Positions 57,942-60,089 of a stretch of 64,000 nt of DNA are shown here, one piece after another. Every line of letters begins with the position of its first letter. The stretch's first letter is position 1. The notes under the pieces are model-generated. The model made no database searches, was not told the origin of the DNA, and saw only the letters and a program-made list of their open reading frames with translations. A program made the position numbers and the translations under genes. Source of the stretch: an uncultured Alphaproteobacteria bacterium (GTDB lineage: Bacteria; Pseudomonadota; Alphaproteobacteria; SP197); the NCBI GenBank assembly GCA_958295695.1, contig OY282363.1, positions 744,001 to 808,000 on the forward strand. Reading direction: 5' to 3'.

Positions 57942-58029
57942 GGAGGGGTGGCCGAGCGGTCTAAGGCGCACGCCTGGAAAGCGTGTTGGGCGCAAGCCCT
58001 CGCGGGTTCGAATCCCGCCCCCTCCGCCA
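57942..58029 (+). tRNA. tRNA-Ser (GGA)
   Basis: An 88-nt cloverleaf with CCA encoded. The acceptor stem GGAGGGG (57942-57948) pairs with CCCCTCC (58019-58025). The anticodon arm CACGC-CTGGAAA-GCGTG gives anticodon GGA for UCC codons. There is a long variable arm (class II) and a GCGGG-TTCGAAT-CCCGC T-arm. The 3' end is the junction to the AT-rich islet, a classic integration position. Confidence 0.96.
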
Positions 58030-58109
58030 GACCGCTCCACCGGGGTCTTCACAGGTGCCACATGATCGTCGGAAACGAGCAGCCGGTCTCCGATGCGGGA
58101 AGAAATCGG

Positions 58110-58138
58110 TTGAATTACCACTTTGGCTTTGGTATGTA
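58110..58138 (+). promoter_or_regulatory. putative promoter of the islet genes
   Basis: TTGAAT (58110-58115), 17-bp spacer, TATGTA (58133-58138), 29 bp before the DGQHR gene start. Moderate match to the sigma-70 consensus, the best one in the short upstream region. Confidence 0.4.
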
Positions 58139-58167
58139 CGATACGCTTGTCTTGAGAGGCGTTACAA

Positions 58168-59295
58168 ATGTCAATATTGCATCTACCTGCGGCTAAAGTG
58201 CGACAGGGTGATCTGACTTTGTTTTCGACAGCAATCAAGGTCAAAACTTTAATCCAAGATTGTTTTTACTCCGTCGAAACTTTAGATTCGAGTAAATCAG
58301 GTGATTCCGGGTACCAACGTCTACTCAACCAAGCACGAGCTAGGAAACTCTCTGACTACATCGTGAAGGGACAAGAACATCAAGATGCGTTTCTGCCCAC
58401 ATCAGTATTTTTGGCAACTGACAAGGTTCTCGACTTTGACTCAACCACAAATATAATCAGTTTCGATACGACTACCGTAGGGCCATTTAGTGTTGTAGAC
58501 GGACAGCATCGTTTAGAAGGTCTGAAAATGGCCGCCAAGAAGGATGATCGGGTTCTCGAATTTGAAGTTCCTGTTAATATCGCCGCAAATCTACCAAAGC
58601 TCCATCAAATGTGTCACTTTTTGATCGTCAACACGACACAGAAAAGTGTTGATAAAGCGGTGGAACAGAGAATTATGGCCCGATTGACCGAGGCTGTAGA
58701 TGTTGAAGATATTCCAAGTTTGCCGAAATGGATCTTAAATGTCGTGGAGAGAGGGGAAGTTGAAAAGTCTCTTAGATTTGTGGATTTTTTGAATGAGGAG
58801 CCAAGTTCTCCTTGGAATAATAAGATAAAAATGGCAAACGACTCATCACCAAACATGATGATAAATCAAGGTTCATTTGTGAAAGCGATTGTCAAATATG
58901 TTCTGACTGCAAACAATCCAATTGCTGTAATAAACGATTTTAATAAGGAACGTAAGATATTTCTCAACTATTGGAAAGCTATTGCTGATCTTATCGACGA
59001 TGGAAACGCCTCAGTCCTTTATAGATATAATGGAGTAGAATTGTTCTGTCGGTTTTCGATTCCATTTTTCACAAAACTTCAAGAGGATCGCAGCTTCACC
59101 GTAAGTGCGATGAAAAATCTTCTTTCGAAATGCTTTGAAAATGTTGAAGGCGAGTTCTCTGGTGTTGGGCATCCTCAATGGTGGGCAAGAGGCGGGAAGG
59201 CAAGTGGGCTAAACGCGGGAGCTATAAACCACGTTGCTCAAGAAATGACCAAAGCTCTGCACAAGTTATCAATATCTTCTGAGATTGAATTATGA
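58168..59295 (+). CDS. DGQHR domain-containing protein (DndB-like)
   Basis: A 375-residue protein with the signature VVDGQHRLEGL (DGQHR at residues 111-115). Upstream is the basic element NQARARKLSDYIV that in this family precedes the domain, and downstream FLIVNTTQKSVDKAVEQRIM (about 151-170), the F-x-x-x-N block. DGQHR proteins are ParB/Srx-like and include DndB, the DNA-binding regulator of phosphorothioate modification; many others sit on islands with no assigned role. ATG at 58168 has GAGAGG 9 bases upstream. Low G+C, many Lys/Asn codons, and the tRNA-adjacent location point to lateral acquisition. The stop overlaps the GIY-YIG start (ATGA). No dnd genes are nearby, so the function is unknown. 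Confidence 0.85.
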   Translation: MSILHLPAAKVRQGDLTLFSTAIKVKTLIQDCFYSVETLDSSKSGDSGYQRLLNQARARKLSDYIVKGQEHQDAFLPTSVFLATDKVLDFDSTTNIISFDTTTVGPFSVVDGQHRLEGLKMAAKKDDRVLEFEVPVNIAANLPKLHQMCHFLIVNTTQKSVDKAVEQRIMARLTEAVDVEDIPSLPKWILNVVERGEVEKSLRFVDFLNEEPSSPWNNKIKMANDSSPNMMINQGSFVKAIVKYVLTANNPIAVINDFNKERKIFLNYWKAIADLIDDGNASVLYRYNGVELFCRFSIPFFTKLQEDRSFTVSAMKNLLSKCFENVEGEFSGVGHPQWWARGGKASGLNAGAINHVAQEMTKALHKLSISSEIEL

Positions 59296-59636
59296 ATGTT
59301 CAATATCTTGATCCTTGCCCGAAACAAGGCGACAGAGAGAATTTCCGTCGTGATCGCCAGCGATTTATTCCTCAAGATTCTGGATGTTATATTCTTGCCT
59401 CGTTTCAAAGAAAAGTATTGTATGTGGGCTTAACAAAGAATTTGAGACGACGTTTTGGTGAGCATTTGGATGATCCTGAAAAAATGTCCGTGACTAAAGA
59501 GGGAGCAGTGGTTTTCTTTTATTGGCTTGAATGTCAAGACTTGGAAAAAGTTGAAAGAACTTGGCAAAACCAGTGCGAATTGAAGGATGGTGTTCTTCCT
59601 ATTCTTAACAAAGCAAGATCACCAGTTTCTGTTTGA
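59292..59636 (+). CDS. GIY-YIG nuclease family protein
   Basis: A 114-residue single-domain GIY-YIG protein. FIPQDSGCYILA (the GIY part is Gly31-Cys-Tyr33) and VLYVGLTKNLRRRFGEHLDD (the YIG part is Tyr44-Val-Gly46, then Arg52-54 and His58) form the catalytic half. A glutamate in LEKVERTWQ (Glu84 or Glu88) can bind the metal, and PILNKA supplies the conserved Asn106. All catalytic positions are thus present. There is no extra DNA-binding domain, so targeting would have to come from a partner, most simply the DGQHR protein with which translation is coupled by ATGA. It could be a restriction-like, homing or repair nuclease; which is not known. Confidence 0.85.
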   Translation: MNVQYLDPCPKQGDRENFRRDRQRFIPQDSGCYILASFQRKVLYVGLTKNLRRRFGEHLDDPEKMSVTKEGAVVFFYWLECQDLEKVERTWQNQCELKDGVLPILNKARSPVSV

Positions 59637-59700
59637 GAAGCTATCTTGGCTGTATGTGTCGATGCCTGTGGCATGAGTGAGTTCATAAAAAATTTCGTCA

Positions 59701-59886
59701 CTAAAGTGTCGAGATAGATCTTTGTTCGTTTCGAATCTTCTTTCCAAAAACTGCGCATACGTCGGGCCGCGCGAATGTCGCCGCTTTGCGCGCCGCGACG
59801 GCGCTTAGCTGCGCGGCGATGCGGGCTTCGATCCGTTCCCCGTTTCTGTTATCCGCCGCCATGCTCGATGCTTCTGCTTCGGCCAT
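59701..59886 (-). pseudogene. hypothetical protein cut by the islet edge
   Basis: A 61-codon minus-strand frame starting MAEAEASSMAADNRNGERIE. The first ~44 codons are G+C-rich and protein-like (ARIAAQLSAVAARKAATFAR). The last ~17 codons (AVFGKKIRNEQRSISTL) lie in AT-rich islet DNA. The frame therefore looks like the 5' part of a resident gene whose remainder was replaced at the islet's right edge. GGAG is just before the start. No family is recognised. It could also be a chance frame. Confidence 0.4.
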
Positions 59887-60089
59887 TGCTCCGGCTCCGC
59901 GATCTCTAGCCCCTCGCCGCGCGAACCTCCGCCAAGTGTTGCGCCGAGACCCTATGGCGCGTCCGTCCTTGACGGGAGCGCCACGGCTTTTTGTCGCTCG
60001 CGGCGTTCCCGCGCGGGAGGCCCGGTCGGGGAGGCCGTCCGCCGCGAGCGAAACGAGGCTGGAGCGTTATCGTGCGAAGCGGACGAGCC
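59887..60089. other. non-coding stretch right of the islet
   Basis: G+C-rich, no supported gene. It contains CCTCCGCCA (59926-59934), identical to the last nine bases of tRNA-Ser, and palindromic CGCGGCG/CGCCGCG-like words. Together with 59637-59700 and the truncated frame it makes a 450-bp region without an intact gene between the GIY-YIG gene and the SDR gene. Confidence 0.5.

Follow-up and report, generated by a model that had tools for sequence, protein, structure and literature searches.

A conserved DGQHR and GIY-YIG gene pair beside a tRNA-Ser gene in an uncultured alphaproteobacterium: a candidate mobile restriction module

The window analysed here, a 64,000-nucleotide stretch of a contig from an uncultured Alphaproteobacteria bacterium, carries an intact tRNA-Ser (GGA) gene on the forward strand (57942..58029) followed by an AT-rich islet (58030..59760). 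The GC content of the islet was 39–43% compared to about 70% around it, falling at about position 58000 and returning to 0.70 after about 59750. The composition drop right after an intact tRNA-Ser, as noted in a preliminary description of this DNA, was thus confirmed by ARAGORN and by the GC profile. Two genes were found in the islet, both on the forward strand. The first (58168..59295) encodes a DGQHR-domain protein of 375 aa and the second (59292..59636) a stand-alone GIY-YIG nuclease of 114 aa, with an ATGA stop/start overlap between them (59292..59295). No further gene was found within 58030..59760, and these reading frames agree with the earlier account of an ATGA-coupled pair, with a complete nuclease gene, in an otherwise empty islet. 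A conserved promoter or operator was not apparent by eye upstream of the DGQHR gene, and the promoter-like matches fell inside the AT-rich gene.

When sister genomes of the same genus were compared, the tRNA-Ser gene was conserved, whereas the DNA 3' of it differed in most of them (two resembled each other), so this spot can be regarded as a variable site; in one of these genomes (L090) a tyrosine integrase is encoded directly 3' of the tRNA. At the window islet itself, neither an integrase nor a duplicated tRNA-Ser 3' end or att-like repeat at the right edge was seen, and tRNA-mediated integration of this islet was therefore not supported. A motif of about 60 bases beside the islet (59940-60005), perhaps a REP-like element, is found at more than ten places in the genome with 75–91% identity.

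Relatives were collected with a profile built from seven of them, which yielded 53 loci out of 84,980 species genomes, and plasmid copies and viral contigs were added to these. Adjacency was then scored in 57 non-duplicate relatives (36–78% identical) with a complete or nearly complete DGQHR gene, two of them frameshifted (L054 and L055). The GIY-YIG gene lay directly downstream on the same strand in 55 of the 57, the exceptions being L027 and L040, and the overlap was exactly 4 nt in 46 of the 53 pairs measured. The lengths of both proteins were nearly constant (372–384 aa for the DGQHR protein and 110–121 aa for the nuclease), and their distance matrices were correlated with r = 0.85, a value reached by none of 2000 permutations. 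In pairs with unsaturated synonymous change, dN/dS values of 0.02–0.17 showed purifying selection on both genes. The DGQHR and GIY-YIG pair is a real conserved two-gene unit and not a chance arrangement; homologues that were rarely adjacent, as the preliminary description had allowed for, are not what was found, as the pairing extends over many phyla. When neighbour families were compared across the loci of the relatives, no third neighbour recurred in more than three of them, so the unit consists of just these two genes. A related GIY-YIG gene without a DGQHR gene was detected on a Rhizobium etli plasmid (L008). Distant DGQHR proteins, including a DndB-like protein of the same genome, had no such GIY-YIG neighbour in the flanking DNA examined, and the partnership is therefore considered a property of this DGQHR subfamily.

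The first protein of the pair belongs to the DGQHR family, with 103.3 bits for TIGR03187 (cut-off 58.85; 1.8e-29), and also exceeded the cut-off of the DndB model PF14072 (44.4 vs. 29.1; 1.5e-11). An alignment of 48 relatives placed the DGQHR motif at aa 111–115 (codons 58498..58512, forward strand), where D111, G112, Q113 and H114 were invariant and R115 was conserved in at least 90%; Q50 and R51 as well as F151 and N155 were also invariant. Thus the three motifs known from DGQHR domains and shared by GmrS (DGQHR, QR and FxxxN; PMC4619093) are all invariant or nearly so. The structure model of the protein (pLDDT 87.9; plasmid-record rows were left out of the input alignments for both models) shows a ParB/sulfiredoxin-like fold in residues ~10–160 and a helical C-terminal part. 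Its best matches were KorB (Z 7.2, rmsd 4.7, 203 residues aligned), PadC (7.0, 2.9, 99) and ParB-CDP (6.7, 2.6, 95), followed by Noc (6.7, 4.5, 194) and sulfiredoxin (5.1, 4.2, 96), with lower values for SspE (4.2, 4.5, 124) and BrxU (4.0, 8.6, 218). Foldseek alone returned nothing under E 0.001 when the model was compared to the PDB, and no relative of solved structure was found by sequence. Although the Z values for ParB-fold matches are middling (about 4–7), the ParB/Srx reading was retained because nearly all top matches belong to one superfamily and because the three motifs shared with GmrS are conserved. For this protein, DndB is a less apt description than ParB/Srx-fold NTPase relative, in the manner of GmrS and SspE. 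The label "DndB-like" given to it earlier holds as far as the DGQHR domain and the PF14072 score are concerned, but the equivalog cut-offs for DndB (TIGR03233, 15.4 bits vs. 328), DpdB (NF041060, 44.1 vs. 300) and DGQHR_dnd_1 (TIGR04172, 55.1 vs. 450) were all missed.

Some copies of the DGQHR protein carry extra in-frame N-terminal domains of at least three unrelated kinds (L003, L005, L006, L018, L020 and L021). A DUF5655 domain was recognized in four Rhizobiaceae, with 28.4 bits in L006 (cut-off 24) and a score below the cut-off in L003 (20.7), whereas an unrelated domain of about 140 aa is present in L018 and L020 and yet another kind in L021. Such differing N-terminal domains would suit a variable recognition of targets.

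A second DGQHR subfamily was detected in Pf phage PfAC19, Providencia, Burkholderia glumae and plasmids of Leptospira and Acinetobacter (L064:3974-5953, L065:4959-6829, L066:4875-6926, L067:4986-6915 and L068:2350-4303). In these loci, the DGQHR gene is followed 0–13 bases 3' by a gene for a different partner of about 300 aa without any Pfam match, in which a "YYCAFFS...RNxWNY" pattern recalls, by eye only, HEPN proteins. This arrangement suggests that DGQHR proteins pair with alternative effectors.

The second protein of the pair is a member of the GIY-YIG superfamily by its score (PF01541, 36.4 vs. a cut-off of 22.6; 6.8e-9), its fold and its catalytic residues, as Y33, Y44, R54, H58, E88 and N106 are all present in the window nuclease. 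Across 48 nuclease sequences F18, G31, Y33, G46, R54, H58, G71, E88, P103 and N106 were invariant and Y44 nearly so, in agreement with the Tyr/Tyr/Arg/Glu/Asn residues used for catalysis by UvrC and I-TevI. The model (pLDDT 95.6) corresponds to a bare catalytic domain, with fold matches to T4 EndoII (Z 10.0), UvrC (9.7), I-TevI (6.8), R.Eco29kI (5.9) and PD-T4-3/CMoRE (5.1). With invariant catalytic residues and purifying selection, this protein is not the decayed remnant that had been considered in the preliminary description.

The module is widely distributed, as it was found in Alpha-, Beta-, Gamma- and Deltaproteobacteria, Bacteroidota, Acidobacteria, Chloroflexi, Planctomycetes, Elusimicrobia, a spirochaete and the archaeon Methanoperedens. 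At the same time it is rare, since among 289 sampled Alphaproteobacteria genomes a close member was present only in the genome of the window, nine genomes of its genus had none, and no match was found by DNA similarity in Escherichia coli genomes. Compared to the flanking DNA, the AT content of the module was higher in 44 of 45 loci, with a mean difference of 12.6 points, and the copies in a Sphingobium (Alphaproteobacteria) and a Methylophilus (Betaproteobacteria) MAG were 92% identical for the DGQHR protein and 84% for the nuclease. The pair is also carried by rhizobial megaplasmids and a Cupriavidus plasmid, and in a viral contig of 40 kb (L002/L062) it is flanked by a tail gene and the tape-measure gene and runs opposite to them; two further viral contigs hold the module as a pair. 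The pair behaves as a mobile accessory module that moves horizontally. In two viral contigs (L126:11751-14075 and L127:8113-10437) a further DGQHR gene, encoded on the other strand, is found within about 0.5–2.3 kb of the module, and its product in L126 has 774 aa and an N-terminal region that appears nuclease-like by eye.

The DGQHR domain is common to DndB, DpdB and DGQHR_dnd_1, but the pair lies outside any dnd or dpd operon. DndC exceeded its family cut-off in only 3 of 48 carrier genomes and, as no neighbour family recurs and the equivalog cut-offs were missed, membership of a Dnd operon was rejected. These data agree with the earlier view that this is not a normal Dnd system, and the DGQHR gene does not always belong to a larger Dnd operon elsewhere, a possibility raised in that description. 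Its remark that no modification genes are nearby is right within the window; past the window end, however, genes for DndC, DndD, a DndB-like protein and Dnd-type restriction are located on the same contig, with dndC at a distance of about 23 kb from the module. Since Dnd genes generally do not co-occur with the module in its carriers, this proximity was regarded as coincidental. The genes form part of an island of lower GC (G000:C1, ~812000-846000; L096 and L097), about 10–40 kb from the module, which also encodes a MobF relaxase, a second DGQHR protein of 590 aa, a Dnd-type restriction helicase, a DUF499 anti-phage-like protein and a tyrosine recombinase.

The neighbourhood of the module was compared to the models of PADLOC, which gave matches to 181 models (141 + 40) among 255 neighbour genes of 43 loci vs. 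9 among 113 control genes, a rough enrichment taken as only suggestive because redundant restriction-modification models raise the model counts. Type I and type II restriction-modification, MADS, AbiE, DRT and Mza genes were neighbours in some loci, but many copies of the module lie among housekeeping genes. Thus proximity to known defence genes is seen in part of the loci, with a modest enrichment. From the mobility of the pair, its carriage by phages and plasmids and its analogy to known enzymes, we infer a probable function in defence. In PADLOC-DB 2.0 the DGQHR protein had only weak DpdB/DndB matches and the nuclease none below E 0.02, and no description of the pair was found in the openly accessible papers searched for DGQHR or DndB with GIY-YIG. 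Within the literature searched and PADLOC-DB 2.0 the pair is best called undescribed, the principle of NTP-gated restriction itself being already known.

The closest analogies for a mode of action are found among NTPase-gated type IV enzymes. GmrSD and BrxU (PF03235 DUF262 plus PF07510 DUF1524) likewise combine a ParB/Srx-fold NTPase-type domain, with a D-G-Q-[QH]-R motif, and an endonuclease, and GmrSD also occurs as two separate proteins (PMC4619093). However, their nuclease is HNH and that of the pair is GIY-YIG; the DGQHR protein reached 15.8 bits for GmrSD_N (PF03235, cut-off 33.2), and the DUF1524 HNH domain (PF07510) had no match in either protein. SspE, which resembles the DGQHR protein in its ParB-like domain with a corresponding motif, uses GTP hydrolysis by the DGQQR motif of this N-terminal domain to license its HNH nuclease (PMC13251355), but it is a single polypeptide that needs the ssp modification operon, whereas the pair consists of two proteins with a GIY-YIG nuclease and no modification operon. 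CMoRE (PD-T4-3) is a single-protein GIY-YIG type IV enzyme specific for 5hmC (PMC12923530) and shares with the pair the type of nuclease and, putatively, anti-phage defence, but it has its own C-terminal modification-sensing domain; in the pair the nuclease is bare, and its partner would do the sensing. As to the ParB, Noc and KorB CTPases, whose fold the DGQHR model matched best, the difference is that the DGQHR gene is linked to a nuclease and that no ParA or parS-like partner was seen.

With these analogies in mind, the pair would be a horizontally moving two-gene restriction module made of a nucleotide-gated DGQHR sensor and switch and a GIY-YIG cutter, a reading to which we assign a probability of roughly one half. 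The ParB/sulfiredoxin-fold domain of the DGQHR protein would bind and hydrolyse a nucleotide, a role as a nucleotide-driven switch proposed by analogy with the DGQQR motif of SspE, and the protein may recognize some feature of foreign DNA, such as a modification, a structure or a bound state. Upon recognition, it would license the co-translated single-domain nuclease, presumably within a physical complex, to nick or cut the DNA in a putative defence role. The mode of working would thus be like that of GmrSD, BrxU and SspE, with a separate GIY-YIG subunit in place of the HNH domain. Against this restriction module stand the DGQHR genes without a partner in L027 and L040 and the unaccompanied GIY-YIG gene of L008, as well as the modest defence enrichment, the many copies among housekeeping genes and ParB-fold Z values of only 4–7. 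A more specific proposal, which we put forward tentatively and consider doubtful as a whole, is that of an immune system not described before, with a ParB-type nucleotide switch that would sense the DNA, a separate bare GIY-YIG domain that would cut it and swapped N-terminal domains, DUF5655 among them, that would broaden the sensing; its sensor could possibly be a DNA clamp driven by CTP or GTP, like KorB and ParB.

Among the alternatives, a toxin-antitoxin-like or abortive module, in which the DGQHR protein would restrain a cell-damaging DNase and repress the operon, the nuclease being released upon infection or when the module is lost, appears unlikely, though several features suit it: the operon is small and coupled, its first gene is regulator-like, and it is carried by plasmids and phages. 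Moreover, DndB is reported as an ATP-dependent repressor of dnd (PMC10853773), and the coupling of the sister DGQHR family to a different partner of about 300 aa implies that controlling effectors may be a general role of the DGQHR protein. However, no operator-like sequence conserved upstream of the gene was apparent by eye, and the nuclease-like gene of L008 stands without a DGQHR gene, although an unrestrained toxin should be lethal. A plain type II restriction enzyme, or a replicon maintenance or repair function, with the ParB-like protein as specificity subunit was judged improbable; GIY-YIG type II enzymes such as Eco29kI and Hpy188I are structural relatives and the fold of the DGQHR protein fits, but no neighbour family recurs, methyltransferase and ParA included, and the majority of copies lie on genome contigs in which nothing points to a plasmid partition operon.

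Still smaller is the chance that the pair is a selfish homing cassette, spreading by cutting empty sites with a GIY-YIG homing endonuclease and a ParB-like DNA-binding partner. The likeness of the nuclease core residues to I-TevI, the absence of cargo and the many unrelated sites would fit such a cassette, but there is no repeated neighbour, no intron or intein context and, at the window islet, no flanking duplication. The least credence was given to an accessory Dnd role, in which a dnd system at another place in the genome would supply the phosphorothioate DNA that the pair reads, as SspE reads its own ssp mark. The cluster about 23 kb away in the genome of the window and the naming of the DGQHR family after dnd point in this direction, whereas the scarcity of DndC among carriers (3 of 48) and the failure of the protein to come near the cut-offs for DndB, DpdB and DGQHR_dnd_1 argue against it.

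If the restriction module proposed above is real, NTP-gated restriction of the GmrSD/SspE kind would not be bound to HNH nucleases, and its modular switch could be combined with other nuclease folds. It would also represent a very small (~1.5 kb), self-contained DNA-targeting system spread across phyla, and would suggest a function for orphan genes annotated as "DGQHR domain-containing" or "GIY-YIG nuclease family", linked to Dnd by name only.

The two domains were also observed together in the reverse order. In a contig with three DGQHR matches (G390:C41), a GIY-YIG gene of 200 aa precedes and overlaps a truncated DGQHR gene (L150:860-2061), apparently an independent pairing of the same two domains.
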